This document shows, piece after piece, positions 1,392-16,328 of a DNA stretch of 16,328 nucleotides. Within the stretch, counting starts at the first letter, position 1. Each line of letters opens with the position of its first letter. The DNA lies in assembly GCA_030609785.1 (NCBI GenBank), contig JAUWTC010000007.1, positions 1 to 16,328 on the forward strand, read 5' to 3'. The notes beneath the pieces are model-generated. The model searched no databases, was not told the DNA's origin, and saw only the letters and a list, made by a program, of their open reading frames with translations. The position numbers and the translations under genes are program-made. This stretch comes from Holophagae bacterium (GTDB lineage Bacteria > Acidobacteriota > Thermoanaerobaculia > Thermoanaerobaculales > Sulfomarinibacteraceae).

Positions 1392-1397
1392 TACACT
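1392..1397 (+). promoter_or_regulatory. Candidate -10 for a leaderless channel transcript
   Basis: TACACT fits TANNNT and ends 6 bases before the GTG at 1404, so transcription would begin at about the start codon. No Shine-Dalgarno is visible. The same geometry occurs at 8788, 9051 and 13797. Confidence 0.4.
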
Positions 1398-1403
1398 ACC
1401 CCT

Positions 1404-2933
1404 GTGAAACCAAGGCGCACTGCACAACAGACCGGCATCATCCATGCCGCTTTCCACCAACCGGAGACCCAGGTCTACCGCGTGGTCCAGGGCTTCGTAT
1501 GGCTGCTGATCACCGGATCGATCGCTTTGATTGCCGCAGGATTCTTCGTCGAACCGGACAGCCCCACCTCACAACTGTTGATCCGCATCGACCATCTGGT
1601 GCTGTGGATCTTCCTCGTGGAATACGTCCTACGAGTTGTCTCCTACCAACCACCAGGCCTCGGTCTCTTCGACCGCACACCGCGGCAACGCATCCTCTAC
1701 AGCCTTGCCAAACGGCTGGGCTATTGCCTGACCCCCCTGATGCTGATCGATCTGGCCACGGTCCTCGCCCTGGCGCCACAACTGCGGGGTCTCCGAGCCC
1801 TGCGCCTCCTGCGCGTGCTTCGTTTTCCCAGGATCTTCCGCCGGGCCAACCCCTTCAAAGCGGTGATGTTGTCATTCCGGGAAAACCGCCTGATGTTCGC
1901 CTTCGGTCTGCTGATGGTCTCCGGTGCAACCGTTCTTGGGGGCCTGACCCTGTTTCTGATCGAAGGACCCCTGGCCAAGGAAACCCAAACGATCAGCAGC
2001 CTGGGAGAGGGCATCTGGTGGGCCCTGGTGACGATCACTACGGTCGGCTACGGTGACATCATCCCGGCGACCCTGATCGGCCGAGTGGTTGGCGGCGTAC
2101 TGATGGTCTCGGGGATGTTCACCCTGGCCCTGTTCGCAGGCATCGTCAGCCAGACCCTGTTGCGCGCCGTTTTGAGCATTCGAGAGGAGCAATTCCGCAT
2201 GAGCACCTATGTCAACCACGTCGTCGTCTGCGGCTACGATCCAGGGGCCCGCATGCTGCTCGACGCCCTCCTGGCGGAGTTGGGCGCCCACGGACCAACC
2301 GTCGTGCTGTTCGCCCAGGGCGAGAGGCCGGCCGGGGTCCCGCTGGAGTTCACCTGGGTCAACGGTGACCCGACCAAGGAGAGTGAGCTGGACAAGGTCC
2401 GTTTGTCCCACGCTGCGGCGGCGATCGTCGTCGGCAACCGAAAGGTCCTGCCGCAACAGGCAGACGCTCATACGATTTTGACGGTATTCACCTTGCGTTC
2501 CTTCCTCGAGCAGCGCGGCGCCGCCGCCAGGCGGCGCAATCCGATGCACGTCGTTGCGGAGATCCTGGATGCCGAGAACGTCGCCCACGCTCGGACCGCA
2601 GGCGCCGACGAGGTGATCGAGACGACCCGCCTGGGCTTCTCCCTCCTGGCGCACTCGGTCGTCGCGCCGGGCACCGCGGCGATCATGGGCCGGATGGCGG
2701 CGTCACGGGCCCACAGCCTCTTCGTCAGCGAGGCGCCCCCAGAGCTGGAACTGCCGGCGACTTTTGCCCGTGTTGCTGCTCACCTCAAGAGCACGCACGG
2801 CGCCCTGGTGATCGGCCTGAGGCGACCCGGGGATGCCGAGGATCTCCTCAACCCACCCGATGAGTTGTCGGTGCCTCCGGGCAGCCGCGTCGTCTACCTC
2901 GCGGACGAGGCCTACTGCAATCAGGAAACCTAG
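1404..2933 (+). CDS. Voltage-sensor K+ channel with RCK/TrkA-N-like cytosolic domain
   Basis: The 509-residue inner-membrane protein has six predicted helices: S1 about 32-48, S2 61-80, S3 107-125, S4 127-147, S5 162-186 and S6 222-250. S4 carries arginines at 128, 131, 134, 137, 140, 143 and 146, a textbook voltage sensor. The pore has the K+ selectivity filter TVGYGD at 213-218. From about 271 follows a Rossmann-like regulator of K+ conductance region (HVVVCGYDPGARMLLDAL). The usual GxGxxG loop is here GYDPGA, so nucleotide binding may be altered. A second alpha/beta part extends to the C-terminus. GTG 1404 is chosen as start because of the TACACT 6 bases upstream; TTG 1386 lies within the dyad and is less likely. 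The stop is followed after one base by the ATG of the next gene, so the two are probably coupled. The channel presumably gates K+ by voltage plus a cytosolic signal; the ligand is unknown. Confidence 0.88.
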   Translation: MKPRRTAQQTGIIHAAFHQPETQVYRVVQGFVWLLITGSIALIAAGFFVEPDSPTSQLLIRIDHLVLWIFLVEYVLRVVSYQPPGLGLFDRTPRQRILYSLAKRLGYCLTPLMLIDLATVLALAPQLRGLRALRLLRVLRFPRIFRRANPFKAVMLSFRENRLMFAFGLLMVSGATVLGGLTLFLIEGPLAKETQTISSLGEGIWWALVTITTVGYGDIIPATLIGRVVGGVLMVSGMFTLALFAGIVSQTLLRAVLSIREEQFRMSTYVNHVVVCGYDPGARMLLDALLAELGAHGPTVVLFAQGERPAGVPLEFTWVNGDPTKESELDKVRLSHAAAAIVVGNRKVLPQQADAHTILTVFTLRSFLEQRGAAARRRNPMHVVAEILDAENVAHARTAGADEVIETTRLGFSLLAHSVVAPGTAAIMGRMAASRAHSLFVSEAPPELELPATFARVAAHLKSTHGALVIGLRRPGDAEDLLNPPDELSVPPGSRVVYLADEAYCNQET

Positions 2934-2934
2934 G

Positions 2935-4755
2935 ATGGATTCCACCACGCGACGAAGCCGTCTCATACGAATTGCGCTATGGGCATGGGCTATCTACCTC
3001 GTGGCGGGCAATCTCTTTGTGGCGACACCGATCGGGCAGAACCTGATCGCACCTCACCCCGAACGGTTCACGATTCACTGGGGCCGGGCATGGACCGTCA
3101 TCCCAGGCCTGGTCCATGTACAGGACCTCGAAATCCGCCAGCACTCGAAAGACGTCGTGTGGCATCTCACGATCGATCGGGCGGTCACCGGCGTCAACAT
3201 CCTGGCCCTGCCATTCAAGACCTTCCACGCCGTCCTTCCCCGGGCACGGGGGGTTGAGGTCGGGGTCGAACAGGCGCCGACAACCATGCCGCCCACGGGC
3301 AAGACCAAACCGGGCTTTCGAATCCGACTGAGCGGCATGGGGGTCAGAGACATTCGTTTCCTGGATTTCTTCGACCTCCACATTGAAGGAGAGGACCTCC
3401 GGATCGGGGGCGGGCTCGACACTACGGCCCGCGGACCACTGGGTATCCCGCGAGCTAGGGTCAGACTTGAGGGAGGTCAGGTCAGCCACGAGGGAGTGGC
3501 GCTGGCGACAGATCTCGACCTCGATTGCCGGGCCCGCATCGACAAACACACCAAGGAGGATCGGAGTGAGGGAGGGATCTTCCCCTTCATTTCTGCGAGC
3601 CTGAAGGCCTCAGGAGACATTGCTGACCTTCGGTTCATCGGAACCTTCTTGCGCTCGGTCTCATGGATGCAGGTCCGGGGAGGCTCCGGAACCCTCGAAG
3701 CAGACCTGGACATTTCAAAGGGCGCACTGGAACCGGGGAGCCGGTTGGATATCCAGACCTCGGCTTTTGCCTTCGAGTACCTCGACTATGCGGTCACCGG
3801 AAGGGGCAAGGTCGTGATCACCGGCCGCGAGGCCGACGGCCGAGGAGACACTACGCTGGACTTCGATCTCGATGATTTCGCCCTTGGTTTCCTGGACTCG
3901 AATACCCCACACATTGAGGGGCACAATCTCAGCGCCAGGATCATCGGCAATCTCACGGAAATGACGCAACCCAAGGCCCCGGTCGAGGTGACGATCGACG
4001 TGCCCGAAAGTGAGGTGCCGGACCTCAGGATTTACAACCGATATTTCAAGGGCGCCTCACCGGTGGAGATCCTCTCAGGGAAGGGTCGCCTCAGGTCCCA
4101 CCTCGAGGTCGCGACAGGGCCTGGGACGGGCAGGGGCACCATCGAAGTCAAGACCACCGATGTCTCGGTCGACATCAAGGACCGGAAGATCGTTGCTGAT
4201 GTGCATCTCCTCTTCCCAGTCACGATCACCGACGTCAAGGACAGGATGTTCACGGTGGACGGTTCGAGCATCAAGATAGCCAACGCCGGAGTTGGTACGC
4301 CTGAAGAGCAGGGCCCTGCCGATACGCCGCCACGGGACTGGTGGTGCAACATTGATATCAATAATGGAACACTTCGGCTGGCGAAACCTCTTGAATTGGA
4401 TACCGATCTCACACTGAAGGCCTTCGACGTGGAACCCCTCCTGGCCTTGATCTCCAAGACCCGCAAGTCGGCAGATCGGTTGGACCGGATCCTCGCGATT
4501 CACGACCTCGAGGGCGGCGCCCACCTCGCTGTCGGAGATGGCGGCACACACATCAAAGACCTTTTCACTGAGGGGGGGCGCGCCGAAATGCTCGGCAATC
4601 TCTGTCTGCGAAAGGGCGACAACTCAGGCGCCATCTACATCAAGTACGGCATCCTCTCCCTCGGTGTCGAAATCTCGGGCGATGACGAAAAGAAACACCT
4701 CATCGGGCCACGAAAATGGTACGACGAGTATGTCGGAGATTTCAGCTGCAGGTAG
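2935..4755 (+). CDS. AsmA-like membrane-anchored envelope protein, function unknown
   Basis: The 606-residue protein has one N-terminal membrane segment (about 11-30, LWAWAIYLVAGNLFVATPIG). It is followed by PERFTIHWGRAWTVIPGLVHVQDLEIR and a long beta-rich region with recurring strands such as GKGRLRSHLEV and ATDLDLDCRARID. This signal-anchor plus repetitive beta layout recalls AsmA/TamB/YdbH-type proteins that span the periplasm and move lipids, but I see no decisive motif and no assigned family. The start is the ATG at 2935, one base after the channel stop, rather than an in-frame ATG at 2833 inside the channel gene. The tight spacing implies co-translation with the channel. The gene ends 3 bases before the convergent msrBA stop, leaving no room for a terminator. 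The coding call is firm; the lipid-transport analogy is weak inference. Confidence 0.7.
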   Translation: MDSTTRRSRLIRIALWAWAIYLVAGNLFVATPIGQNLIAPHPERFTIHWGRAWTVIPGLVHVQDLEIRQHSKDVVWHLTIDRAVTGVNILALPFKTFHAVLPRARGVEVGVEQAPTTMPPTGKTKPGFRIRLSGMGVRDIRFLDFFDLHIEGEDLRIGGGLDTTARGPLGIPRARVRLEGGQVSHEGVALATDLDLDCRARIDKHTKEDRSEGGIFPFISASLKASGDIADLRFIGTFLRSVSWMQVRGGSGTLEADLDISKGALEPGSRLDIQTSAFAFEYLDYAVTGRGKVVITGREADGRGDTTLDFDLDDFALGFLDSNTPHIEGHNLSARIIGNLTEMTQPKAPVEVTIDVPESEVPDLRIYNRYFKGASPVEILSGKGRLRSHLEVATGPGTGRGTIEVKTTDVSVDIKDRKIVADVHLLFPVTITDVKDRMFTVDGSSIKIANAGVGTPEEQGPADTPPRDWWCNIDINNGTLRLAKPLELDTDLTLKAFDVEPLLALISKTRKSADRLDRILAIHDLEGGAHLAVGDGGTHIKDLFTEGGRAEMLGNLCLRKGDNSGAIYIKYGILSLGVEISGDDEKKHLIGPRKWYDEYVGDFSCR

Positions 4756-4758
4756 CCC

Positions 4759-5865
4759 TCAATCCCTCAGCACATGGCATTGATAGCCGCCGGGATTCTT
4801 CTCGAGGTAATCCTGGTGGTATTCCTCGGCCGACCAGAAGGGGCCGGCTTCGACGATCTCGGTCACGACCGGATTCTTGAAAACCCCACTGCGATCAACC
4901 TCGGCCTTGACCTTTTCGGCAGACTCCCGCTGAGCCTCTGAGAGGTAGAAGATCGCTGAACGGTATTGGGTGCCGATATCGTTGTGTTGGCGGTTGCGGG
5001 TAGTCGGGTCATGAAGCCTGAAGAAATAGTCCAGGACCTCTGCATAGGAGACCCTCGAAGGGTCGAAGACCAGTCGGACGGACTCGGCGTGTCCGGTCTT
5101 CCCCGTCGTCACCTCGCGATAGCCCGGATTCTTGGTGTGACCGCCGATGTAGCCGACCTCGGTGGAGAGCACGCCCTCGAGGTCGAGGAAGAGGTGTTCG
5201 ACGCCCCAGAAACACCCGGCGGCGAGGATGGCCTCCTCGGTACCGGAGGTTCCCGGTTCTTTGGCGGCCTCGACGCCGTCGTCATCGTCCGTCACCTCGA
5301 TGACACCCGCCTCAACAAAGGCCGGCACGAATTGACCGAAACCCTCGCTCTCGAGGTCCTCGGCGGCGACAAACCGAAGTGACGCCGAGTTGATGCAGTA
5401 CCGCTGTCCACCCGGGCCGGGGCCGTCATCAAAAACATGCCCCAGGTGGGAGTCGGCTTCCTTCGATCGGACCTCGGTGCGAACCATGCCGTGACTGCGA
5501 TCCTTGACGTCGACGACAGTTCCCGGCACCAGCGGCTTGGTGAAACTGGGCCATCCCGAACCGGAGTCAAATTTGTCCAGACTCGAGAACAACGGCTCGC
5601 CGGAGACAACGTCGACGTAGATGCCTGGCGCCTTGTGATTCCAGTACTCGTTGGCGAACGGAGGTTCGGTCGCCGAGCACTGCGTGACCTTGTACTGCAT
5701 CTCGCCCAACTCGGCCTTGAGTTGCTCATCCGTCGGCCTTGTGGCGTTACTCATGCGGCTATCCTCCGAAGACGAAATGGTCGAACCTCCACCCACTCCT
5801 GCGACCAGGAGTCCGGCGGCTGCAATCAAACACAGAGCTGCAATAGCGATCTCTCGGTACTTCAT
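4759..5865 (-). CDS. msrBA: Bifunctional methionine sulfoxide reductase MsrB-MsrA fusion with N-terminal export/anchor segment
   Basis: This 368-residue fusion repairs oxidised methionine in proteins. Residues 1-25 form a signal or anchor helix ([18 protein letters not shown]), pointing to the periplasm. MsrB spans about 45-170, with [29 protein letters not shown] (key part at 80-108) and catalytic Cys157 in RYCIN, specific for the R-sulfoxide. The zinc cysteines of other MsrBs are absent. The Cys often seen in SGCGWPSF is Ser103 here, so Cys63 ([11 protein letters not shown]) may be the resolving residue. MsrA spans about 210-368, with catalytic Cys218 in GCFWG and Cys363 in GGYQCH near the C-terminus as probable resolving Cys, specific for the S-sulfoxide. 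A second in-frame ATG (residue 38, base 5754) has a better ribosome site than the first and would give a cytosolic form. The gene follows the polymerase gene after 121 bases on the same strand and converges with the AsmA-like gene. Confidence 0.93.
5763..5767 (-). promoter_or_regulatory. Internal Shine-Dalgarno deciding an alternative MsrBA start
   Basis: On the minus strand GGAGG lies 8 bases before an in-frame ATG at 5754. This site is stronger than what precedes the outer ATG at 5865. Initiation here would skip the export segment and yield a 331-residue cytosolic enzyme. Confidence 0.45.
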
Positions 5866-5958
5866 GCCGACTCTTGTCCCACAACCACTGAACGGTTACC
5901 GCCATTCCCAAGTTTCAGGCGGAGCCAGAATCATTGCTGAATTCCTCTGTGGGTTTGT

Positions 5959-5994
5959 CCCGAGCCCGAGCCCGTGCCCGTGCCCGTTACCGAG
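5959..5994. repeat. Hexamer tandem repeat forming a G-quadruplex motif after the polymerase stop
   Basis: Six hexamers in register (two CCCGAG, two CCCGTG, CCCGTT, ACCGAG) overlap the end of the polymerase gene. On the minus strand, which is the transcribed sense, they give five GGG runs separated by exactly 3 bases, starting one base after the TAA stop (5989-5987). This is a canonical intramolecular G-quadruplex pattern in the mRNA between the polymerase and msrBA genes. It could act as a 3'-end structure or attenuator. I see nothing else in the 5866-5958 gap. Confidence 0.7.
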
Positions 5995-7702
5995 TTTCTT
6001 CGCGGCCCGCCTGAACCACCGAGCACACCGCCAGCAGCCAACCCCACAGCGGCGCCATCCGGAAATCGAGAATTTCGGGACTTGTCAGACTCCACACGGC
6101 GTAGACGACCCATGCGGCGGCCGCCGCCACCAGGAAGGCCCGGGCCTCGGTGTCGGCGACCCGGCCGATGCTCCGAACGGTCCATCCGATCCAACCGATC
6201 AAGGCGCCCAGGACCAACACCGACCCGACGAAGCCCAACTTGAAGAGCAGGAACAGATACCAGTTGTGGATGTAGTTGACATCGCCGTAGTGGACCCAGT
6301 GGCCCCGGTTGTCGAATCCGTCGACATCCAGGGTTATGGTGGCGCCCAGGCCACGGCCGACCAGCCGATCGACCCAAGAACCTCCATCCAGCGCCTCGAC
6401 GATCTTCGTGCTTTCGTGCCAGCGAAAACCCAGGGTGACATCCCCATCGGCCCGACCGGTCTTCACCGCCCGAGCAAGGCCCAGGACTCGCTCCTTGACG
6501 GCCAAAGCCTTGCCGGCCAAACGTGCCATGGTTGGGGACTCGAGAACAGCGCATTCGACAGCATCGAGACGCCATTGTCCCGTCGATCCCTTCCATCTGG
6601 AGAGTCGCACACGCGCCTCGGTCCAACTCGAGGGCACCGTGGCGACGGCGATTCCAACACCTCGCTCCTGCCCAGCCCGGATCGCCACAGGGATTCTCCC
6701 GATCTGGCGCCCCGAGTCGTCAAAAAAGAGCAGGGCAACCACCATCGCCCCCTTCCCCTCCCCTCGACCGCGAACCACCACGCGCCATGCTTCGGCGTCG
6801 GTCAAATCTACGGGGGCATCGAAGCGGGAATGTCGAGCCCTGTCGGGAAGATAGACGAGACTGCCGGAGAGACAGTTTCCGGCCCCGGGAAAGAGGGAAC
6901 ACGGCGTCCGCTGAAGAGCATCCGGCATGTCTGTGCCGACCCAGTCTTCCAGTTGCCACACAGCGCCTGCCATCCCGGCCCCTATCAGGACGACCGAAAC
7001 CAGGGCGATCAGCGTTTCCCGGCTGCGCACCCCCCTCCAGACGACAACCAGACCGACAACGGCGGCCGGTGTGAGAATCCACAGACTGCGGAGACTCGAA
7101 CCGAGGATCACCAGCAGAATCGAGACCGTCGCCAGCCATGCCAATCGCCGCATCCAACGAAGGGAATCACGAACCGATACCAGAGAAAAACACAGCCCCA
7201 TCAACGCCGGACCGATCACCGAAACCGAGTTGGGTAGAAACAACCGTGAAGGCTCCCCGAGGATGGCGATCTCCGCGGCGCCCCACAGCAGCTGTATCCA
7301 ACAACCCAGCGTTATTGCCGACAGGAGGCCGGCCTTCCATCGTCTCTCCGCAGGCCCCTGCCAGGCGGCCAAGCCACCGATGGCGGCCAACGGCAGCAAC
7401 CCCATCGACAGCGCCTGACCGACTATCTGGGTTGGTGCATGCCCTCGAATCAGGCCCACCGCCGCACCCCCGACCGTCGCAAGGGCAACCGCGATCACGC
7501 CAAGAATCACGGGGCGAGGGGCTGCCATCACGCGGCGCCGGCCTTCGACGGTCCCGAGAGCCGGAAGCGTTGCCATGACGACGGCCAGGATGCCGACCGC
7601 CTGAACCACCAGCGACGACCGAAAGCCCAGGCCGACAGTCACAAAGGGCATCAGAACGACCGCGGCGACCGCGATGTCCAGTCTCAGTGGCTTAACCCGC
7701 AT
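5987..7702 (-). CDS. O-antigen ligase/polymerase-like membrane protein with an inserted soluble domain
   Basis: The 571-residue protein has about ten or more hydrophobic helices in residues 8-250 and 480-565. It carries the HNWYLFLLFKLGFVG segment (479-493) that marks the large periplasmic loop and following helix of O-antigen ligase/polymerase (WaaL/Wzy-type) proteins. It probably joins or polymerises surface-polysaccharide units at the periplasmic face. The loop is unusually long. Residues about 262-390 look like an inserted beta-sandwich (SLVYLPDRARHSRFDAPVDL, AWRVVVRGRG, VVALLFFDDSGRQIG, RVRLSRW, GQWRLDAVECAV), similar in style to carbohydrate-binding jelly rolls. The ATG at 7702 overlaps the glycosyltransferase stop by 11 bases, with GGTGA 3 bases before the ATG. 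Whether it is a ligase or a polymerase cannot be decided from sequence alone. Confidence 0.8.
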   Translation of the reverse strand: MRVKPLRLDIAVAAVVLMPFVTVGLGFRSSLVVQAVGILAVVMATLPALGTVEGRRRVMAAPRPVILGVIAVALATVGGAAVGLIRGHAPTQIVGQALSMGLLPLAAIGGLAAWQGPAERRWKAGLLSAITLGCWIQLLWGAAEIAILGEPSRLFLPNSVSVIGPALMGLCFSLVSVRDSLRWMRRLAWLATVSILLVILGSSLRSLWILTPAAVVGLVVVWRGVRSRETLIALVSVVLIGAGMAGAVWQLEDWVGTDMPDALQRTPCSLFPGAGNCLSGSLVYLPDRARHSRFDAPVDLTDAEAWRVVVRGRGEGKGAMVVALLFFDDSGRQIGRIPVAIRAGQERGVGIAVATVPSSWTEARVRLSRWKGSTGQWRLDAVECAVLESPTMARLAGKALAVKERVLGLARAVKTGRADGDVTLGFRWHESTKIVEALDGGSWVDRLVGRGLGATITLDVDGFDNRGHWVHYGDVNYIHNWYLFLLFKLGFVGSVLVLGALIGWIGWTVRSIGRVADTEARAFLVAAAAAWVVYAVWSLTSPEILDFRMAPLWGWLLAVCSVVQAGREETR

Positions 7703-8735
7703 TATTCACCAGCCTTCGCCAGAGATTCAGGTGACGCTCGGCCACAGTCGACCAGGAAAAGTGCCCGGCGTGCTCCACAGCCCCATGCCTCAGGGCCTCG
7801 CTCCGCCCGCTGTCGAGGACCTTTCGAATGCCCTCCGCCAGTGCGTCCGCCCGTCCGCTTTCGAACAGCACAACCGCTGGTTCGAAGTGCTCCCGGTGGA
7901 CTTCAATGTCCGATGCAACCACCGCCCCGCCGCAAGCCAGGGCCTCGAGCAGGGGCAGGTCGAATCCCTCATCCCTCGAAGGTGAAATCACAGCGGCAGC
8001 TCCAGCGAACAGCGCCGGAAGGAAGGCGTCATCCACCCGCCCCAGAAATCGGACCCATGGCGGCGGATCCGCGAGGTCCTCGACCCGGTCCCGAGCCTCG
8101 CCGACCAGCACCAGGGTCATGGCGGGCGTCTCAATCTGAATTTCGCGGACGGCCTCCAGGGTCAGGTCGAGCCCCCGCCGCCGTTCGAACGATCCCATCT
8201 GCATGACGAACGGAGCTTCAATGCCGAAGTGGGCCAGAATCGCGTCGATCTCCCCCTGAGGCGGTGCGCCAAAGACCCGGAAGTCCACTCCGTAGGGCAT
8301 GACCTCGATCCGGTTCCGTGGAACGCGACACAAGGCCTCGATTTTCTCTGCGACGTGCTGTGAGGCCGTGACGATCGCCTCGGCGCGACGAGCGCCATGT
8401 CTGATCAACCGGGCCGTGACATCAGCCCAGGGCCGAGGAAACCACTCCGGATGTTCCAGGACCAGGACGTCGTGAATGGCACACACGACCGGGCATCGAG
8501 CGCTGAGCGGCGGGTAGTAGAACGGCAAATGGAGGAGGTCGAACTTCGAAGAAGCTCTTTGGAGATCCCACAGGACCCAGCGCACCGTTCGCCGCCTGGT
8601 TTCCGGCTGCAGAATCTCCACATCCAAATCGTCGGCGCTGACGTGCCGTAACCCTGCCAGGAGTCCTTCGAGGTAGCGGGCAATCCCCGCTCGGGGCGGC
8701 AACAAACAGGCGCCGTCGATCGTGACCGTCGTCAT
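7692..8735 (-). CDS. Glycosyltransferase, GT4 family (GT-B fold)
   Basis: The 347-residue enzyme has an N-terminal glycine-containing acceptor-side loop (PRAGIARYLEGLLAGL) and a central linker (RIEVMPYGVDFRVF). In its C-terminal donor domain it has VMQMGSFERRRGLDL, VLVGEARDR and VRFLGRVDDAFLPALFAGA. It ends with the GT4 EX7E-type motif SRDEGFDLPLLEALACGGAVVASD. Such enzymes transfer sugar from a nucleotide donor at the cytosolic membrane face. The start is placed at ATG 8735 because domain similarity begins there (MTTVTIDGACLLPP). An upstream open extension to 9020 would translate the 7-bp repeat and low-quality sequence. The ATG lacks a good Shine-Dalgarno and overlaps, as ATGA, the stop of an 18-codon upstream ORF. 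It therefore probably depends on coupling. Its 3' end overlaps the polymerase start by 11 bases. Sugar specificity is not predictable. Confidence 0.9.
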   Translation of the reverse strand: MTTVTIDGACLLPPRAGIARYLEGLLAGLRHVSADDLDVEILQPETRRRTVRWVLWDLQRASSKFDLLHLPFYYPPLSARCPVVCAIHDVLVLEHPEWFPRPWADVTARLIRHGARRAEAIVTASQHVAEKIEALCRVPRNRIEVMPYGVDFRVFGAPPQGEIDAILAHFGIEAPFVMQMGSFERRRGLDLTLEAVREIQIETPAMTLVLVGEARDRVEDLADPPPWVRFLGRVDDAFLPALFAGAAAVISPSRDEGFDLPLLEALACGGAVVASDIEVHREHFEPAVVLFESGRADALAEGIRKVLDSGRSEALRHGAVEHAGHFSWSTVAERHLNLWRRLVNNAG

Positions 8736-8788
8736 GGGGTGTTTGGCCTCGCCTGATCGAAGTCGTTCGAGAACGATATGTGCAACAT
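8732..8788 (-). CDS. 18-codon upstream ORF coupled to the GT4 gene (candidate leader peptide)
   Basis: The minus strand reads ATG at 8788 and encodes MLHISFSNDFDQARPNTP. It stops at TGA 8734-8732, which overlaps the GT4 ATG (8735) as ATGA. TAGAAT lies exactly 6 bases before its ATG, the same leaderless geometry seen at three other unit-leading starts. The GT4 gene itself lacks a good ribosome site, so ribosomes leaving this ORF could re-initiate there. Codons 5-9 contain the dyad TCGTTC-TC-GAACGA (8763-8776), which could form a small hairpin in the mRNA. No family is recognisable, and short ORFs arise by chance. The combination of promoter spacing and stop/start overlap is the argument for reality. 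Confidence 0.45.
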   Translation of the reverse strand: MLHISFSNDFDQARPNTP

Positions 8789-8794
8789 CGTCCG

Positions 8795-8800
8795 ATTCTA
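8795..8800 (-). promoter_or_regulatory. Candidate -10 for the GT4-polymerase-msrBA unit
   Basis: On the minus strand TAGAAT (five of six to TATAAT) ends 6 bases before ATG 8788. No convincing -35 is seen 16-19 bases upstream. Confidence 0.4.
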
Positions 8801-8986
8801 ACCCGGGCTTTTCGGCAGTGGTCTTCTGCGGCGCGAAATACGCAGACCCACAAACCCGAGAGAACTCAATACCTCCAAACCGGACGTGTCGGGTGTTGCT
8901 CCTGGTGGCGTGAGGCGTTTCGACCCCCGTTGCATCCAGGGGCAAGAACCGCGGCAGCGTCCGGGGCTGAGTCCTTAGACCCTTTG
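8801..8986. other. Intergenic stretch between divergent polysaccharide units
   Basis: Between the upstream-ORF -10 and the 7-bp repeat I see no gene, RNA or clear regulatory element. The minus-strand frame of the GT4 gene stays open here, but the translation resembles no glycosyltransferase and is best read as chance. Confidence 0.5.
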
Positions 8987-9035
8987 CTTCATCCTTCATC
9001 CTTCCGTCTTCACCCTTCACCCTTCTCCCTGACCC
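8987..9035. repeat. 7-bp tandem repeat, seven units, upstream of the flippase
   Basis: Seven heptamers lie in perfect register: two CTTCATC, CTTCCGT, two CTTCACC, CTTCTCC and CTGACCC. The array ends 15 bases before the flippase ATG, and its fifth unit supplies the TTCACC that is spaced as a -35. The base composition is strictly C/T-rich on the plus strand. Confidence 0.85.
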
Positions 9036-9044
9036 CGCTATGAT
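9016..9044 (+). promoter_or_regulatory. Promoter of the flippase-GT2 unit, embedded in the 7-bp repeat
   Basis: TTCACC at 9016-9021 (four of six to TTGACA) and TATGAT at 9039-9044 (five of six to TATAAT) are separated by 17 bases. The -10 ends 6 bases before ATG 9051, predicting a leaderless mRNA. There is no Shine-Dalgarno before 9051, which agrees. Confidence 0.55.
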
Positions 9045-9050
9045 CTACCG

Positions 9051-10322
9051 ATGTCGGAGACGGTACGTCGGGTAGCGCGAAACGCGGTGTGGCTTGCGGT
9101 TGGTGAGGGTGCGGTCAAGGGCGCCCTCTTCCTGGCCGCGATCATCGTTGCCCGTTCTGCGGGGCCTGAGGGAATGGGCGTGTTTTCAATTGCCTTCGCC
9201 GCCGCCATTCTGGCGGTGATGGTCCTGGCCGCCGGTCAGCAGGAGGTCGTCATCCGCGAGGTGGCGGCTGCCCCCGAACGGGCCGGAACGCTGCTGGACG
9301 CCGCCAGGACCGTCCAGGACCGGCTGGGACGGTGGGTCCTTCCGGCGCTCGTCGTCGGAGCCCTGCTGGTTCACGAACGGGACCTTCGCCTTGCCCTGCT
9401 GGCATTCGTGCCCTACGCACTGCTGAGGACCCTCCTCGTCACCCACGGTTCGGCCTTCAAGGGCCTTGACCGCATGGACATGGAAGTTCGAGCCCGCGGC
9501 CTCGAAGTCCTGGTGGTTCTGCCCGGGCTCGCCGCAGTCGGTTGGGCCGGCCTCCCCGTCTGGACCACCGGAGTGGTCTTCAGTGTCGGCGCCGGCACCG
9601 CATTGATCTGGCTGTCCACCCGCTCACGCGATCTCAATCGATCGACCGCTAAAGCCGGCCCGGAGCAACACACTCCGGCCCCCCCCGTCTGGCGGTATTT
9701 TCGGCACGAAGGCCTGCCCTTTCTCGCCCTTGCAGTCGCAAGCCAACTGCTGGCGCGAGCCGACACCTTTTTGCTGGCGGCGTTTGAGGTTTCCCACCAG
9801 GAGATCGGCTACTTCGGGGCTGCGGGGGCGCCGATATGGGGCATCGTCGCTCTGCCGACACTCCTGGCCGTTGCCTTCTACCCCACCCTGTCTCGTTGGG
9901 CGGCCGAAGGCCGATCACCGCTCCAGGCGGTAGCGGTTGCCGTCCTCCTCGGTGGAGCCCTGGGCTCTGGCTTGGCAGTGGCGATCAACGCCGTGAGAGA
10001 GCCCCTGGTCCTTCTGGCCTTCGGCTCTGACTTTGAACCCACTGCCGTCCTGCTCTCCCGCCTGGTCTGGGTGCTCCCGACCAAGTTCGTGATGACGTTC
10101 CTCGGGCTGATTCTGGCCGCATGGCACCGCCAGCACCTGGCGCTGATCGCGGTGGGCGCCGTCCTGGTTCTCTCGATCGGCCTCAATCTGATCTGGATTC
10201 CTACGATGGGCGCTTTTGGGTCGGTGAACGCGGCCGTTGTGGCTCACGCTGCCGGAGTCCTGATCCTGGTGGCCGTCGCGGTCACAACCCCACGTTCAAA
10301 CGGAGATTCTGATGAACCTTGA
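9051..10322 (+). CDS. Wzx-type polysaccharide flippase (MOP superfamily)
   Basis: The 423-residue polytopic protein opens with the family's N-terminal pattern RRVARNAVWLAVGEGAVKGALFLAAIIVARSAGPEGMGVFSIAFAAAIL. Repeated hydrophobic helices run over the full length. A mid-protein segment (FLALAVASQLLARADTFLLAAFEVSHQEIGYFGAA) is typical of the second half of Wzx/oligosaccharide flippases. It would move lipid-linked oligosaccharide across the inner membrane. Its usual partners are present: the two glycosyltransferases that build the unit and the polymerase/ligase that acts after flipping. The start at 9051 is supported by the adjacent TATGAT promoter and by the helix beginning right after it. The gene overlaps the next gene by 11 bases (10312-10322). 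The ATG has no ribosome site, so leaderless translation is likely. Confidence 0.87.
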   Translation: MSETVRRVARNAVWLAVGEGAVKGALFLAAIIVARSAGPEGMGVFSIAFAAAILAVMVLAAGQQEVVIREVAAAPERAGTLLDAARTVQDRLGRWVLPALVVGALLVHERDLRLALLAFVPYALLRTLLVTHGSAFKGLDRMDMEVRARGLEVLVVLPGLAAVGWAGLPVWTTGVVFSVGAGTALIWLSTRSRDLNRSTAKAGPEQHTPAPPVWRYFRHEGLPFLALAVASQLLARADTFLLAAFEVSHQEIGYFGAAGAPIWGIVALPTLLAVAFYPTLSRWAAEGRSPLQAVAVAVLLGGALGSGLAVAINAVREPLVLLAFGSDFEPTAVLLSRLVWVLPTKFVMTFLGLILAAWHRQHLALIAVGAVLVLSIGLNLIWIPTMGAFGSVNAAVVAHAAGVLILVAVAVTTPRSNGDSDEP

Positions 10323-11214
10323 ATCGACGGCTCTGGGCGTCGTCATCATCCACTACGGGCGAGCGGAACCGACCCGGCAGTGTCTGCGAAGCGTGCTCGA
10401 AGACCCTTCAGCAGTCGAACGGCACATCGCCGTCGTCGACAATTTCGGCAATCTCAAGCCAGAGGAATTCGGCAACTCCACGACCCTGGTACACCGCCCT
10501 GACAACCCCGGATTCGGGGGCGGCGCCAACGTCGGCGTCGCCGCCTTGAGGACGAAGGCCGACTGTCTCGGCTTCGTCGTCATGAACAATGATCTTGTAA
10601 TCAACCCCGGTTTTCTCGATGCCGCGGCCGAGGCCCTCGAACCCCAAGATGTCGGAGCGGTCGGCGGTCCAATACTTGTCGGTTTCGATCAGCCGACCCT
10701 CTGGTACGCCGGGGGGGTCATCCGGCGGCTGACCGGCACAGTTCGGCAGAGCCACTCGAAAGCCGACGCTTCCAGACGCCGGGAGGTCGGCTTCGTCCCG
10801 GGAACCGCAATCGCCGTCAAAGCCGACGCCTGGTTTGAAATCGACGGCTTCGACACCAGCTACTTTCTCTACAACGAAGACATTGACCTCTGCCTCAGGC
10901 TCCGGAGAAATGGGAGGCGTCTACTCTTCGAACCTGGGATGACCTGCCTCCACGACCTGGGGGAGACCACCGGTTCCAGCCACCGATCAGCCCTCTATCT
11001 CGAGCAGATCACGCGGACCCGGCTCCGCCCCTTCAGACCCCGCGCCTACCAGCTCTACCTGGGAGCGGTTCACACCCTCTACAACGTCGCCCGCGTCCTC
11101 AGGCTGTTCCTCCGCCACGGCCGCTCGGCCCGAACACAGATCCGGGCCATCATCCGAGCTCACCTCGCCGCTCTGGCCGAGGTCGTCGGACTAACCCGTA
11201 CTTCTCACCAGTGA
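10312..11214 (+). CDS. Glycosyltransferase, GT2 family (rhamnosyltransferase-like)
   Basis: The 300-residue GT-A fold enzyme starts with VVIIHYGRAEPTRQCLRSVL. It then has HRPDNPGFGGGANVGV, typical of this GT2 subgroup, and MNNDLVI as the metal/donor-binding DXD equivalent. FVPGTAIAVKADAWFEIDGFDTSYFLYNEDIDLCLRLRRNG contains the ED acidic pair of the likely catalytic base. It adds a sugar to the growing lipid-linked unit at the cytosolic face. The C-terminal 80 residues are Arg-rich and helical and may associate with the membrane. The ATG is preceded by GGAG 6 bases upstream and overlaps the flippase stop by 11 bases. The same overlap length occurs between the GT4 and polymerase genes. The rhamnose-type assignment is only by resemblance. 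Confidence 0.9.
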   Translation: MNLESTALGVVIIHYGRAEPTRQCLRSVLEDPSAVERHIAVVDNFGNLKPEEFGNSTTLVHRPDNPGFGGGANVGVAALRTKADCLGFVVMNNDLVINPGFLDAAAEALEPQDVGAVGGPILVGFDQPTLWYAGGVIRRLTGTVRQSHSKADASRRREVGFVPGTAIAVKADAWFEIDGFDTSYFLYNEDIDLCLRLRRNGRRLLFEPGMTCLHDLGETTGSSHRSALYLEQITRTRLRPFRPRAYQLYLGAVHTLYNVARVLRLFLRHGRSARTQIRAIIRAHLAALAEVVGLTRTSHQ

Positions 11215-11237
11215 TCTGCTGCGGCCGCCGATGCGCA

Positions 11238-11333
11238 AGCCCATTCCCCCAACGGCGGAACGGGTCCCCAGCCCATTCCCCCAACGGCGGAACGGGTCCC
11301 CAGCCCATTCCGCCAACGGCGGAACGGGTCCCT
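11238..11333. repeat. Three tandem 32-bp units with internal dyad
   Basis: Units occupy 11238-11269, 11270-11301 and 11302-11333. The first two are identical and the third differs at two positions. In the third, TTCCGCC-AAC-GGCGGAA is a perfect 7-bp stem, extended by CCC/GGG beyond one A/C mismatch. In units one and two a C replaces G and weakens the stem. The array lies between the convergent ends of the GT2 gene and the DUF6868 gene, and its last two bases fall inside the DUF6868 stop codon. There is no spacer and no T-tract, so it is neither a CRISPR nor a standard terminator, although the stems could slow transcription from both sides. Confidence 0.9.
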
Positions 11334-11574
11334 ACCCCACAATACGCAATGCCAGGTACGGGACAATACACAACCGGAAGATACCAGCCTTGAAAAACAG
11401 CATTCCCTGGTAATGCACAGCATCGAATTTCTCAACCGACAGCTTGAACCACTTCCCATGCATGCGATACATGAGATCGTGGCCAAAGACGAAAAATAAC
11501 CACCAGAAAAGCAGCATCCCAATATTCAAGACCCCACACCAACCAAGAGCGTCACGAACCAATTCAAGTGTCAT
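11332..11574 (-). CDS. Small two-helix membrane protein, DUF6868-like
   Basis: The 80-residue protein has a helix at about 12-31 (CGVLNIGMLLFWWLFFVFGHD). A conserved-looking middle follows (MYRMHGKWFKLSVEKFDAVHYQGM), and a second helix near the C-terminus (LFFKAGIFRLCIVPYLALRI). From memory this matches the DUF6868 family, small inner-membrane proteins of unknown function. The ATG at 11574 has a good Shine-Dalgarno (AAGGAG) 7 bases upstream. The gene follows rsmB after 41 bases, so it probably shares the fmt-rsmB transcript. The stop codon is reached just at the 32-bp repeat array. Confidence 0.8.
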   Translation of the reverse strand: MTLELVRDALGWCGVLNIGMLLFWWLFFVFGHDLMYRMHGKWFKLSVEKFDAVHYQGMLFFKAGIFRLCIVPYLALRIVG

Positions 11575-11615
11575 TCCTCATCTCCTTTCGAATTCCTGAC
11601 CACCAAACAGATCGA

Positions 11616-12896
11616 TCATACCCCCACCCGCCTCAGCACATGGACGGTGAATCCGTCGCACGACTCCTGAGGCAGCAGTCGAATACCGCCTGCGGATGTC
11701 CCGGTTGCCGGCGTCCCCTCCGGCAGGCTCGGTGCAAGATCCACCACCTCGAAACCCGTCGGCGGTCGATCGAAGTGGTCCTCGTTCTCCTCAGGTTCGA
11801 CACTGCAGGTGCTGTAGAGAAGAAGCCCGCCCGGCGCCACCAGATCGAGCGCACCCCCCAGCAACTTGGCCTGCAGGGCGGCCCGGTCGCCGACATCCTC
11901 AGGTCGAAGACGGTACCGCAGTTCCGGATGGCGGCGCAGGGTCCCTGTGCCGGTACAAGGCGCATCGAGGACGACAGCGGCCCATCGTGCCCTGACGACC
12001 GCCGGCCGGGCCGCATCCTGGACAACCCGAAAGACCCGCCCACGGCAGGTCTCGAACACTCGGCCGGCCCGGTGTAAACGCCCCAGGCTGAGGTCGGCGG
12101 CAACTGCCGCTGCCCACGCCCCATCCCTGACGATCCTTGCAGTCTTCCCCCCCGGGGCTGCACAGAGGTCGATGACCTCGCCGCCGCCGGGATTCAGTGC
12201 CGCCGTCAGCCAGGCCACCAGCTGAGACGCCGGATCCTGGGCATAGGCATCGCCACTTCGGAGTGATCCGACAAGATCGCTGCCGACGGCACGCCACGCC
12301 CCCGGCATCCACGGGTGTTGGTGCAACTCGATACCTTCACCAGTCAACCGGTCGGCGGCATCGACGTCTGTAAACCAGACCCACAGCGGAGCCGGATGCT
12401 GAGCCGCGGACATCGCCGATTCGGCTGCGTCCTGGCCGAAGGCCCGAGCCCATAGCCGCCACAGCCAGTCGGGATGGGAGTTCCGAAAGGCATCATCGCC
12501 TTCCCGGACCAGGCGATCCCAGTGTCCCGGGGCTCGGCGCATGACAGCATTGACCAGTCCTGACGCCTTGGGCCTGCCCATGCGCCGGATGAGCCGAACG
12601 GCGCCGTCGCCGGCGACCGCCGCCGGAATCCCCAATCCCTTGATTTCATACAGACCGACCCGAAGAGCGGCCCTGACCTCCGGGTCGAGGCTCGTCGGCT
12701 TCCGGCGGGACGCCGCCTCTATCGCACCGTCCAATGGGCGCAGGAGCCGCAGGGCGCCCAGCACACGAGCACGCACGCCCGGCGCCGAAACGTCGCCGAG
12801 AAGGCGAGAGGCGAAAGCGCCGTCCTCGACTCGCACGAGCAGTGCGGCCGCTCTCAGACGATCAGCCGAGGTGCTCACCGCGACCCACTCGCTCAC
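11616..12896 (-). CDS. rsmB: 16S rRNA m5C967-type methyltransferase RsmB
   Basis: The 426-residue protein has an N-terminal NusB-like RNA-binding half, with VRAALRVGLYEIKGL and ASGLVNAVMRRA, then HPDWLWRLW. The SAM-dependent catalytic half follows, with VIDLCAAPGGKT (241-252, SAM-binding), LDAPCTGTGTLRRHPE (motif IV, Cys314) and LYSTCSVEPEENE (motif VI, Cys364 as nucleophile by family knowledge). It methylates a cytosine of 16S rRNA. The C-terminal RLLPQESCDGFTVHVLRR corresponds to the usual DGFF-type end. The start at 12896 gives a 35-base overlap with fmt. GTG codons a few residues later are possible alternatives but do not remove the overlap. fmt followed directly by rsmB is a common bacterial order. 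Confidence 0.93.
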   Translation of the reverse strand: MSEWVAVSTSADRLRAAALLVRVEDGAFASRLLGDVSAPGVRARVLGALRLLRPLDGAIEAASRRKPTSLDPEVRAALRVGLYEIKGLGIPAAVAGDGAVRLIRRMGRPKASGLVNAVMRRAPGHWDRLVREGDDAFRNSHPDWLWRLWARAFGQDAAESAMSAAQHPAPLWVWFTDVDAADRLTGEGIELHQHPWMPGAWRAVGSDLVGSLRSGDAYAQDPASQLVAWLTAALNPGGGEVIDLCAAPGGKTARIVRDGAWAAAVAADLSLGRLHRAGRVFETCRGRVFRVVQDAARPAVVRARWAAVVLDAPCTGTGTLRRHPELRYRLRPEDVGDRAALQAKLLGGALDLVAPGGLLLYSTCSVEPEENEDHFDRPPTGFEVVDLAPSLPEGTPATGTSAGGIRLLPQESCDGFTVHVLRRVGV

Positions 12897-13797
12897 CGAT
12901 CAGGAAAGCATCGACCGGCATCCGCCGACGGCCCTCGCGCTGGACCTCGGTGATCCGGGCGGCGGTTTGCTTCCCGCAACGGACGACGATGCCGGTCCCG
13001 TCGGCCGACAGGATCTGCCCGGGCAGTTCGGAACCCGGCGGGGTTTCCGCCACCTCAAGTCCGAAGATCTTGAGCCGGTCCTTTCTGAAGATCGTGTAGA
13101 GCCCGGGCCAGGGGGTGAAACCGCGAAGACGATTGACCAGCATCCGTGCAGGACGGGACCAGTCGATTTTCGCAAATTCCCGCCTGAGCATCGGGGTCTC
13201 CGTGACGCCGTCTTCCGGTTGCGGCCGAGGTTCGAGGGCGCCCTCTCCCATCTCGTCCAGGGTCCTGACCAACAGGTGGGCGCCGATCAAAGCCAGACGG
13301 GGCGTCAGCTCCTCGGCGGTCTCGCGAGGATCAATTTCAACCGCCTCTTGGAGCAGGATCGGGCCCGTGTCCTGATCCTCTTCGAGGAGCATGGTTGACA
13401 CGCCGGTCCTCCGATCCCCACTGACCAAGGCCCATTGTATCGGCGACGGCCCTCGGTGCCTCGGCAGCAAACTGGGATGGACGTTGACCATGCCCCGGGG
13501 AACGGCATTCAGACAATCCAGGGGGATGATCCGTCCGTAGGCCACCACCGCCGCAACCTCAGCCCCAGACTCACGGATCCTGTCCGCGACCGCCGAACTC
13601 TTGAGAGTCTTGGGCTGCCACACCTCGATGCCGTGCCGCCTGCCGCACTCCGCCACCGGAGGAGGCGTCAGGACCTTCTTCCGGCCGATCGGCTTGTCCG
13701 GGCGGGTGACGACAAGAACTACCTGATGATCACTCTCGACCAGATGATCCAGGGAGGGAACTGCAAAGTCCGGAGTTCCAAAAAACACAACTTTCAT
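12862..13797 (-). CDS. fmt: Methionyl-tRNA formyltransferase
   Basis: The 311-residue enzyme formylates initiator Met-tRNA using 10-formyl-THF. It starts with MKVVFFGTPDFAVPSLDHL, and the long insertion loop TRPDKPIGRKKVLTPPPV follows. The catalytic signature NVHPSLLPRHRGPSPIQ gives Asn105 and His107, and LEEDQDTGPIL gives Asp143. The C-terminal OB-like domain carries FTPWPGLYTIF and LPGQILSADGTGIVVRCG. The start is ATG 13797, where homology begins. An in-frame extension to 14079 runs through the divergent protease gene and is rejected. TACCAT lies exactly 6 bases before the ATG and there is no Shine-Dalgarno, suggesting a leaderless message. def and priA, frequent neighbours, are not present upstream. 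Confidence 0.96.
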   Translation of the reverse strand: MKVVFFGTPDFAVPSLDHLVESDHQVVLVVTRPDKPIGRKKVLTPPPVAECGRRHGIEVWQPKTLKSSAVADRIRESGAEVAAVVAYGRIIPLDCLNAVPRGMVNVHPSLLPRHRGPSPIQWALVSGDRRTGVSTMLLEEDQDTGPILLQEAVEIDPRETAEELTPRLALIGAHLLVRTLDEMGEGALEPRPQPEDGVTETPMLRREFAKIDWSRPARMLVNRLRGFTPWPGLYTIFRKDRLKIFGLEVAETPPGSELPGQILSADGTGIVVRCGKQTAARITEVQREGRRRMPVDAFLIGERVGRGEHLG

Positions 13798-13803
13798 GTG
13801 CTG

Positions 13804-13809
13804 ATGGTA
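13804..13809 (-). promoter_or_regulatory. Candidate -10 of a leaderless fmt transcript
   Basis: On the minus strand TACCAT fits TANNNT and ends 6 bases before the fmt ATG. A weak TTCAGA lies about 19 bases further upstream. Confidence 0.4.
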
Positions 13810-13836: not shown

Positions 13837-13852
13837 GGTGTTGATCATCACC
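13837..13852. promoter_or_regulatory. 16-bp near-palindrome in the fmt/protease divergent region
   Basis: GGTGTTGATCATCACC is symmetric except for one position in each half. It covers the candidate -35 of the protease promoter, so it could be an operator for the protease gene. Confidence 0.35.
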
Positions 13853-13869
13853 ACTCCGGGCAGTACACT
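13841..13869 (+). promoter_or_regulatory. Candidate promoter of the secreted protease gene
   Basis: TTGATC (13841-13846) and TACACT (13864-13869) each match consensus at four of six positions and are 17 bases apart. This gives a short leader before ATG 13888. Confidence 0.45.
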
Positions 13870-13887
13870 GGAAAGTCGGAAATATTT

Positions 13888-16328
13888 ATGTTGAGGAGAG
13901 ATCCGGCTTTGGTTTTGGTGGCTGCCTTGGTGGTAGGCCTGGCGGGAACGGCGGCCGCTACGGTTGCGACCGGTCGAACCCATGACCCCAGCCTGGACCC
14001 CGCACTTGCGGCACACGCCTTTGAAGGCGACACTCCTGTCGCGGTGATCGTGCGCCTCGATCCGGACGGCGGCAACCAAATGTCGCCGGAGGCAATGGCA
14101 GCGGCAACGCCCGGACTCCTCCAGCCAACCCTCGACCGCCTCGAAAGCGCTGGAGGCATTTCGAAAATCCGCCCCTTCAGGCTTCAGCCGTCATTCGCCG
14201 CCGACCTGACGTCCGAGGGGCTCGAGCAGTTACTGTCCTTGCCGGGCATTCTCTCCGTCGAAATGGACGACCGGTGGCCTCTCCACACCGCAGAAGGCCT
14301 GGAGTTGATCGGAGCGAACGTGCTCCATACCTACGGGTTCAGCGGTACGGGGACGGCAGTCGCCATCATCGACACCGGCATCGATGCGCTGCACCCCGCT
14401 CTGGGAGGCGGCGAGATCCCCAACCCCAAGGTCGTGTGGGGGCTCGACACCGCCGATGGCGACGACGACCCTTCGGACTGCTCAGGGCACGGGACTGCCG
14501 TCGCCTCTATCGCCGCGGGGGTCTCGGTCCATTGGAGCCCCGGAAGACAGTTTGCGGGCGGAGTCGCTCCCGAAGCCCGGATTTTTGCGTACAAGGCCGC
14601 TTCGGACGACGACTGCCTGGCTTTGAGAGAAAGCGCAGTTATCGCCGCAATTGAAGATGCCATCCTCCACCGCGAGGGGGACGATTTCCACCTTGTGGCC
14701 ATCAATATTTCGAGCGGCGGTGGATCGTGGTCCGGCCCCTGCGACAGCGACAACCCGGCCATGGCAGCAGCCGTCGATGCGGCGTCATCTGTCGGCATCA
14801 CCGTCGTTGCCAGCGCGGGGAACCAGGGCCTGAGCAACGGTATTACTTCGCCGGCCTGCATCGAAAATGTCCTGGCTGTCGGATCGGTATGGGACCAGAA
14901 TCCCTCGGCGACGGGGTCCCTCTTCTGCCTCAACGCCGATTGCACACGCATTTGCAGCGACGAGGGAAAAAAGGTCGGACAGCCCACCTGCTACAGCAAT
15001 TCAGGGCTCATGTTGGACCTGTTGGCTCCCTCCGAATATCTTCGGGTCGCGGAGGCAGGGGGGCAGACGACGGCCTTTGGCGGAACTTCGGGGGCAGCTC
15101 CCTACGTCACCGGGGGCCTTGCCGTCCTCGAACTGGCCCACCCCGACGCCCCACCAGCCCACATGCGCCACATCCTGAGGATTTCCAGCACCCTTGTGAC
15201 TGATCCCGGGAACCACCGAACCCTCCCGTTGACCGACTTGACCGCTGCGATCTACCCCGAGGGACTGTACCTGGGAGATGCCCTGAACACCGACCTGCCT
15301 CTTCCCGGGTCCGGCCCTTTGACCTCCAAGACGATTGTGGACTCACGCGGCCCCGTTGGGTCCCTCCAACTGACCCTGAGAATCACCCACCCCCTCCCTG
15401 AGGAACTCCATATTCGACTTTTTGGCCCCGAGGGTCATGACGTCTTGATCTGGGACGAGACCGTGCCCTCCCTCTCGGAGAATGGTCTGATCGGGACCTT
15501 CCCCATCGATCTCAAACCGGTCGAAAGTCTCAATGCCTTCATCGGGACCGAGCGCCACGGCACATGGGAGCTGATTGTTGAGGATCGCCTGTCCGAACCT
15601 CATGCCGCCCAGATCGAGAGCTGGAGCCTGTTGATCAAAGACCTTACGCCGCCGGCTGAAGCCAGATCACCACAGATGACCTATCTGCCGGTTGCCGCAC
15701 GCGGTCCCGGAGCGGCGGGCACACGGTGGACCACAGACCTTCAGATCTTCAACCCGTCCTCCTTCACCCCGATCCAGGGGCACCTCTTTCTGGTGCAGGA
15801 GGGGGCAAACGGAACCGAGGAACACCTCCGGCGGCCCCTGTTCATCCCGGCAGGCGCTCAGGTCAACCTGGACGACGTCATCGGCAACACGTTCGGACTG
15901 AACTCCGGCGCCGGCCAGATTCTGATTGATACCTCAGCCATGCCCCTGATCGCGGGAGGAACCATCGCAACGCAAGCGGCGTCCGGAGGGGCCTTCGGTC
16001 AGTTCGAACACGGCGTCACGGCCTCGAGCAGTACCCGCCTGGTTCTCCCTTACATCTCCGGCGGGCCTGACTTCAGAACCAACGTCGGCCTGTCCGAGAA
16101 TGCCGGTGTTGCAGCGGAAGCAACTCTCAAGGTCTTCGATGCAGCAACGGGAACTCTCATCGGCCAACCCCTCGAACTCGAGGTTCAGCCGTTTTCGATC
16201 CAAAGGGTTGACTGCATCCTCCAGGCGGCGGGCGCCCCGCAAACGAATGTGGACGCCTTCGCGGTGGTAGAAACCGACTCCACAGTGTCCGCTTGGGCCT
16301 CTGTCGTCGATCAGTCGACGGGGGATGC
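13888..16328 (+). CDS. Secreted subtilisin-like (S8) serine protease with P-domain and C-terminal beta domain (3' partial)
   Basis: The frame is open from ATG 13888 to the window end (813 codons visible). Residues 1-25 form a signal peptide (MLRRDP, then a hydrophobic run). About 50-127 looks like an I9-type propeptide (PVAVIVRLDPDG and LEQLLSLPGILSVEMDD). The S8 catalytic domain follows: Asp162 in AIIDTGID, His201 in SGHGTAVASIAAG, oxyanion Asn312 in ASAGNQG, and Ser401 in FGGTSGAAPYVTGG. A Cys-rich insert (Cys347, 352, 356, 368) precedes the SNSG segment. About 485-583 is a proprotein-convertase P-domain (GSLQLTLRITHPLPEELHIRLFGPEG, ending HGTWELIVEDR and ESWSLLI). From 598 a further beta-rich region begins YLPVAARGPGAAGTRWTTDLQIFNPS and continues to the edge; a similar domain style is common in exported proteins of Acidobacteria-like genomes. 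ATG 13888 is preferred because RR follows it as the signal n-region. It is probably an extracellular or periplasmic endopeptidase; the substrate is unknown. Confidence 0.9.
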   Translation, partial: MLRRDPALVLVAALVVGLAGTAAATVATGRTHDPSLDPALAAHAFEGDTPVAVIVRLDPDGGNQMSPEAMAAATPGLLQPTLDRLESAGGISKIRPFRLQPSFAADLTSEGLEQLLSLPGILSVEMDDRWPLHTAEGLELIGANVLHTYGFSGTGTAVAIIDTGIDALHPALGGGEIPNPKVVWGLDTADGDDDPSDCSGHGTAVASIAAGVSVHWSPGRQFAGGVAPEARIFAYKAASDDDCLALRESAVIAAIEDAILHREGDDFHLVAINISSGGGSWSGPCDSDNPAMAAAVDAASSVGITVVASAGNQGLSNGITSPACIENVLAVGSVWDQNPSATGSLFCLNADCTRICSDEGKKVGQPTCYSNSGLMLDLLAPSEYLRVAEAGGQTTAFGGTSGAAPYVTGGLAVLELAHPDAPPAHMRHILRISSTLVTDPGNHRTLPLTDLTAAIYPEGLYLGDALNTDLPLPGSGPLTSKTIVDSRGPVGSLQLTLRITHPLPEELHIRLFGPEGHDVLIWDETVPSLSENGLIGTFPIDLKPVESLNAFIGTERHGTWELIVEDRLSEPHAAQIESWSLLIKDLTPPAEARSPQMTYLPVAARGPGAAGTRWTTDLQIFNPSSFTPIQGHLFLVQEGANGTEEHLRRPLFIPAGAQVNLDDVIGNTFGLNSGAGQILIDTSAMPLIAGGTIATQAASGGAFGQFEHGVTASSSTRLVLPYISGGPDFRTNVGLSENAGVAAEATLKVFDAATGTLIGQPLELEVQPFSIQRVDCILQAAGAPQTNVDAFAVVETDSTVSAWASVVDQSTGD

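Follow-up and report, generated by a model that had tools for sequence, protein, structure and literature searches.

Start-adjacent promoter boxes point to leaderless genes in a mostly uncultured family of Acidobacteriota

The window analysed here is a stretch of 16,328 nucleotides from a Holophagae bacterium of the family Sulfomarinibacteraceae (Acidobacteriota), part of a 2.82-Mb draft genome in 457 contigs that is 79.8% complete. In this window, the genes for a potassium-channel-like protein, a polysaccharide-biosynthesis flippase and methionyl-tRNA formyltransferase (fmt) each start six bases after a TANNNT hexamer. Leaderless initiation is, we are highly confident, the best explanation for such start-adjacent -10 boxes, which several genes of this genome and its relatives carry. 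At fmt, dnaX and accA, the predicted promoter is fused to the start codon in every genome of the family examined that has the orthologue. Sequence evidence for leaderless genes now reaches an acidobacterial family that is mostly uncultured; leaderless expression here is of a known and ordinary bacterial kind, and the known mechanism is unchanged by these findings.

In mechanistic terms, the boxes would be sigma70-type -10 elements (TANNNT, often with a G at position -14 and usually without a -35 hexamer), and transcription would begin on the start codon itself or no more than a few bases away. The channel, flippase and fmt mRNAs would have neither a 5' leader nor a Shine-Dalgarno (SD) site, a ribosome with the initiator fMet-tRNA would start at the 5'-terminal AUG or GUG, and the later genes of the units would rely on SD sites or overlaps. 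Transcription starts about seven bases after a -10 box, so that a gap of 6, counted as the bases between the end of TANNNT and the start codon, would mean initiation near the first base of that codon. The relevant passages of one genomic survey place the box about 10 bp ahead of the transcription start (PMC3160421); in those of another source, the fMet-tRNA on the ribosome recognises leaderless mRNAs and IF2 favours them (PMC10783764). We infer both the position of the transcription start and the mode of ribosome binding from the DNA.

Results

Start-adjacent boxes in the window

The channel gene (1404..2933, + strand; Ion_trans, Ion_trans_2 and RCK/TrkA_N domains) has the box TACACT at 1392..1397 (+), at gap 6 from a GTG start at 1404. 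TATGAT at 9039..9044 (+) stands at the same gap from ATG 9051 of the flippase gene (9051..10322, +; Polysacc_synt), which is divergent from a glycosyltransferase gene, and TACCAT at 13804..13809 (- strand) from ATG 13797 of fmt (12862..13797, -); both of these boxes have a G at -14. All three genes are predicted to be leaderless. A fourth, promoter-like box with a G at -14, TAGAAT at 8795..8800 (-), lies at gap 6 from ATG 8788 and does not adjoin the start of the glycosyltransferase gene.

An earlier, sequence-only reading of this DNA had taken all four sites for boxed starts of the first genes of their units, devoid of a clear SD sequence. Its strings and spacing for the four TANNNT-N6-RTG sites (1404, 9051, 13797 and 8788) are correct to the letter, and no SD core lies near the genuine starts at 1404, 9051 and 13797. 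ATG 8788, however, does not share the reading frame of the glycosyltransferase, which leaves three boxed gene starts of the four. First place in a unit is borne out for 9051 and 13797, both divergent from their neighbours; 1404 follows same-strand mobile-element remnants and may or may not lead its unit. The same reading assigned SD sites or overlaps to other genes, and these are present: SD cores precede 375 (gap 6-8) and 11574 (gap 7-8), while 10312 combines an overlap with the end of the flippase gene and an SD core at gap 6.

Of the gene starts inspected in the window, 12 once the alternates 1386 and 8788 are excluded, three thus bear the signature. The probability of at least three in 12 is 2e-5 at the shuffled rate of 1.37/299 per start and 0.04 at the genome's own observed rate of 20/299, both values being post hoc, as the motif was picked after the window had been viewed.

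Genome-wide enrichment

The test proposed with the four sites, a count of TANNNT before starts against shuffled upstream regions, revealed enrichment at gap 6 in two genera. It was applied to samples rather than whole genomes: 61 contigs (425,758 bases) of the window's own genome and a sample of a second genome, G014, from the same family and a different genus. Starts were called by codon usage only, without any upstream signal, and the control consisted of 200 dinucleotide-preserving shuffles of the 50-base upstream stretches. In the window's own genome, TANNNT occurs at gap 6 before 20 of 299 starts, whereas the shuffles average 1.37 and never exceed 6. Gap 7 contributes a further five boxed starts, giving 25 at gaps 6-7 (shuffle mean 2.83, maximum 9), and gaps 8 and 9 contribute six and five. 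The corresponding count at gap 6 in G014 is 16 of 245 starts, against a mean of 0.80 and a maximum of 4.

Boxed starts also differ from the remainder in their genomic setting. Units were delimited by strand and a 60-nt distance cut-off, and the comparisons cover the 279 of 299 starts (own genome) and 236 of 245 (G014) that have a called neighbour; two of the 25 boxed starts of the own genome, 1404 and one in locus L091, have none and were left out. Boxes at gap 6-7 precede 21 of 150 first-of-unit genes against 2 of 129 other genes in the own genome (p = 1e-4), and 16 of 133 against 3 of 103 in G014 (p = 0.014). An SD core was found at only 1 of 23 boxed starts in the own genome, as opposed to 114 of 256 others (p = 8e-5), and at 3 of 19 boxed starts in G014, as opposed to 106 of 217. 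Overall, SD cores peak 4-9 bases ahead of starts, which indicates that the organism uses both initiation modes.

A count that does not depend on called starts points the same way. The pattern TANNNT-N6-ATG opening at least 100 codons occurs 25 times in the own genome, compared with 7.6 on average for gaps 0-4 and 9-30, and 15 times against 3.2 in G014; with GTG in place of ATG the counts are 13 against 7.4 and 19 against 5.7, respectively.

The codon-usage caller placed 1404, 9051 and 13797 as expected. In the window it erred by setting the glycosyltransferase start at 8999 and that of the gene of 2935 at 3001, and by missing two short genes, at 375 and 11574. It took the place of a cruder caller, a 5th-order Markov model, dropped for misplacing starts such as that of fmt (at 13392).

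Conservation across the family

Conservation was examined in 20 genomes of the family, the window's own included. A TANNNT box adjoins the fmt start in 18 of 18 orthologues, at gap 6 in eight, gap 7 in seven, gap 8 in two and gap 9 in one, and all 18 start with ATG; two genomes without an fmt orthologue (G003 and G005) and paralogue fragments with E values worse than 1e-11 do not enter this count. At dnaX, the box stands at exactly gap 6 in 19 of 19 orthologues, in front of 13 ATG and six GTG starts, with a G at -14 in 18 of 19 and flanks (-50 to -15) of a mean identity of 32%; a weak match in G005 and second, C-terminal pieces in G003 and G017 were not counted. For accA, the box lies at gap 6-8 and has a G at -14 in all 20 genomes.

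At 13 of the 20 accA loci (L356-L375) the motif TTGMC lies 17-18 bp upstream of TANNNT, inside the 16-19 bp range of a sigma70-type -35 hexamer. Given this -35 at normal spacing, the accA box is, as far as sequence can tell, the -10 of a complete promoter that ends at the start codon, its predicted start point falling on that codon. No such motif was found at the accA spacing in the 19 dnaX or the 18 fmt loci. We rejected a -35 common to all sites; among the three genes checked, only accA has one. Several fmt loci (L103-L120) have in common a GAGACTTCGTGTACACT-like upstream stretch, which is off -35 spacing.

As read by eye, TACACT stands next to GTG in the five close orthologues of the ion channel examined (own included), at gap 6 in four and gap 7 in one (G011); matches of at most 34% identity were not used. 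The flippase box is kept in the three genomes of the genus that have the gene, again including the window's own.

Across the phylum, fmt matches occur in 147 of 149 genomes and dnaX matches in 119. Among the loci examined there outside the family, a box at gap 6 precedes fmt in one of 47 (gap 5-9 in six) and dnaX in none of 28, with gaps 5, 8 and 10 once each. Among 71 fmt loci mostly of other phyla, gap 6 occurs in one and gap 5-9 in five. In all these sets the search for a box took as its reference the position aligned with residue 1 of the query. In some loci this position is not a start codon, so that boxes at shifted starts could escape these counts. The conserved arrangement appears, from these loci, to be family-specific for the two genes checked, dnaX and fmt. 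The best named relatives of fmt itself are nine metagenome-assembled genomes of Acidobacteriota (Thermoanaerobaculales, Holophagae, Ca. Sulfomarinibacter and others), at 62-87% identity. One of the family genomes (G015, locus L110) has a 100-base stretch in common with Ca. Sulfomarinibacter kjeldsenii (L009), a member of Acidobacteriota; Thermoanaerobaculia; Thermoanaerobaculales; Ca. Sulfomarinibacteraceae, and this link agrees with the family assignment of the window.

The second gene of the fmt unit, rsmB, served as a coarse downstream control: no TANNNT lies within 60 bases before its aligned start in 27 loci (some genomes represented twice), among which the window's own copy alone has a start codon at that position. 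The rsmB start was taken as GTG 12896 (-), and the aligned position holds no start codon in the relatives compared; the true start may lie elsewhere.

Discussion

The leaderless interpretation of the sequence-only reading is thus supported by the enrichment at gap 6 in two genera, by the first-of-unit bias, by the avoidance of SD cores, and by boxes at fmt, dnaX and accA that are conserved while their flanks diverge. A number of observations weigh against it. One of the four sites first noted, ATG 8788, is no gene start; none of the four has a -35-like hexamer; and the site at 1404 is without a G at -14. The fmt gap spans 6-9, such that some relatives may have leaders of 1-3 nt, and only 6 of 18 fmt sites have the G at -14. 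Cytochrome b is boxed in 7 of 10 loci examined (a further 12 of 22 matches, at 33-42% identity, were not used), and four of the seven need the start to be moved 9-33 bases upstream. The flippase box is not at gap 6 in six more distant loci beyond the genus. In the own genome, the start-independent ATG count is also raised at gaps 4 (13), 9 (14) and 28 (14), the GTG count reaches no more than 13 and 12 (against 7.4), and TTG gives no peak. Finally, the Markov caller found just 5 of 164 starts boxed at gap 6.

On the strongest competing view, the boxes matter little or arose by accident, and the real promoters lie further upstream, yielding leaders without SD sites. In its favour, 142 of 279 starts in the own genome have neither a box nor an SD core. 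Accidental boxes would nevertheless have to be enriched at one particular position, biased towards first genes, kept family-wide at the fmt, dnaX and accA starts amid diverged flanks, and accompanied by a matching -35 at 13 of 20 accA loci; we regard this explanation as improbable. Still less credible is a by-product of base composition, in which an AT-rich, unstructured zone ahead of start codons generates the box: start regions of GC-rich genomes do tend toward AT enrichment, but shuffles that preserve dinucleotides yield 1.37 boxes where 20 are observed, and the main peak is just one or two positions wide.

Under leaderless initiation, the conservation of these boxes invites a more speculative idea. 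In this family, the fmt, dnaX and accA genes could be locked into leaderless expression at near-invariant spacing. Since leaderless initiation relies on the formylated initiator tRNA and on IF2, fmt, placed under the very initiation mode that it feeds, could form a positive loop setting the balance between leaderless and leadered translation. We consider this a long shot. The notion that fmt is specially leaderless owing to its role was weakened by dnaX and accA, which are conserved at least as well. Of more practical use, fused promoters and starts could aid start calling in such genomes and offer a natural series for studies of spacing.

Comparison with known systems

The host family was described later than the 2011 survey by Zheng and colleagues. 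In the literature searched, we found no description of leaderless genes in Thermoanaerobaculia or of promoters in Sulfomarinibacter. The sequence-only reading had linked the TANNNT mark to Deinococcota and Actinobacteria. The mark itself applies, but the host is an acidobacterium, and leaderless genes in Acidobacteria had already been reported: the passages available from Zheng et al. 2011 (PMC3160421) record them in three of three genomes, at an average of 13.3% (9.7-19.4). The same passages describe TANNNT, some 12 bp ahead of the start, in many bacteria, tested against dinucleotide shuffles, and expect this TA-led signal only at the proximal gene of a transcript. The boxes described here resemble those TA-led genes in their distance of about 12 bp (from the first T), their first-gene bias and their excess over dinucleotide shuffles. 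Per-gene conservation across a family, examined here, does not figure in those passages.

In Deinococcus-Thermus, according to the portions of Zhong et al. 2025 (PMC12340547) that concern them, open reading frames (ORFs) adjacent to a -10 box represent an important mode, at about 30% of ORFs on average; a -10 box a few bases before an ORF acts as the promoter for a leaderless mRNA, and a -35 is optional and strengthens it. The start-adjacent -10 is common to both systems, and the -35 of accA is comparable to the strengthening -35 described there. The share is lower here, gap 6 accounting for 20 of 299 starts and gaps 6-9 together for an estimated tenth or so. That work also had reporter assays and transcript data; the boxes described here were read from sequence. 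The leaderless transcriptome of Mycobacterium tuberculosis (PMC3898074), to judge from its title and terms, likewise combines TANNNT with leaderless starts; its transcription starts were mapped by experiment, while ours are predicted.

The box at 8788 and the glycosyltransferase start

The GT4 glycosyltransferase gene extends over 7692..8735 (-), its start being taken as ATG 8735, from which the N-terminus MTTVTIDGACLLPPRAGIAR aligns with the N-termini of relatives. ATG 8788 was ruled out as its start, as it is out of frame and opens an 18-codon ORF (MLHISFSNDFDQARPNTP and a stop; 8732..8788, -) that terminates on ATG 8735, the stop overlapping the start codon as ATGA. Given its G at -14, the box may be a true promoter. 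At about even chances, we take the TAGAAT at 8800 to be an ordinary promoter from which the glycosyltransferase is transcribed behind a leader of some 53 nt, the short ORF having arisen by chance. The in-frame start at 8735 does have a weak SD core, but at gap 11, unusual beside the sample's peak of 4-9.

Alternatively, and rather less probably, the box would launch a leaderless 18-codon ORF whose translation is coupled by the ATGA overlap to that of the glycosyltransferase. The arrangement is suggestive: a box with a G at -14, a gap of 6, an ATG and an ORF that ends exactly on 8735. On the other side, boxed short ORFs (ATG or GTG) that overlap starts at gap 6 number only three in the own genome, including site 8788 itself, counted because start 8735 was entered by hand, and one in G014, compared with 0-2 at other gaps. 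The best matches to the glycosyltransferase within the genus, at 33% (G001), 32% (G002) and 27% (G003) identity, are too distant for a conservation test; matches ranked below the six examined were not used. The counts, with no clear enrichment at gap 6 in either genome, do not support the idea that boxed short ORFs of this kind form a common class.

Neighbouring genes

Divergent from fmt lies a subtilase gene (13888..16326, +) that runs past the end of the window. GTACACT is located 18 nt before its ATG, a distance that suggests a short leader rather than leaderless expression. In same-genus relatives of this locus (13850-13888, +), an in-frame ATG lies 13 nt past the box, as read by eye, and this spacing suggests a short leader without an SD site.

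Directly upstream of the channel gene, the region 375-1346 (+) contains a small SD-led ORF at 375 without a Pfam match, followed by broken pieces. The region is likely a mobile-element remnant; one of the pieces matches a DDE_5 transposase below the curated cut-off.

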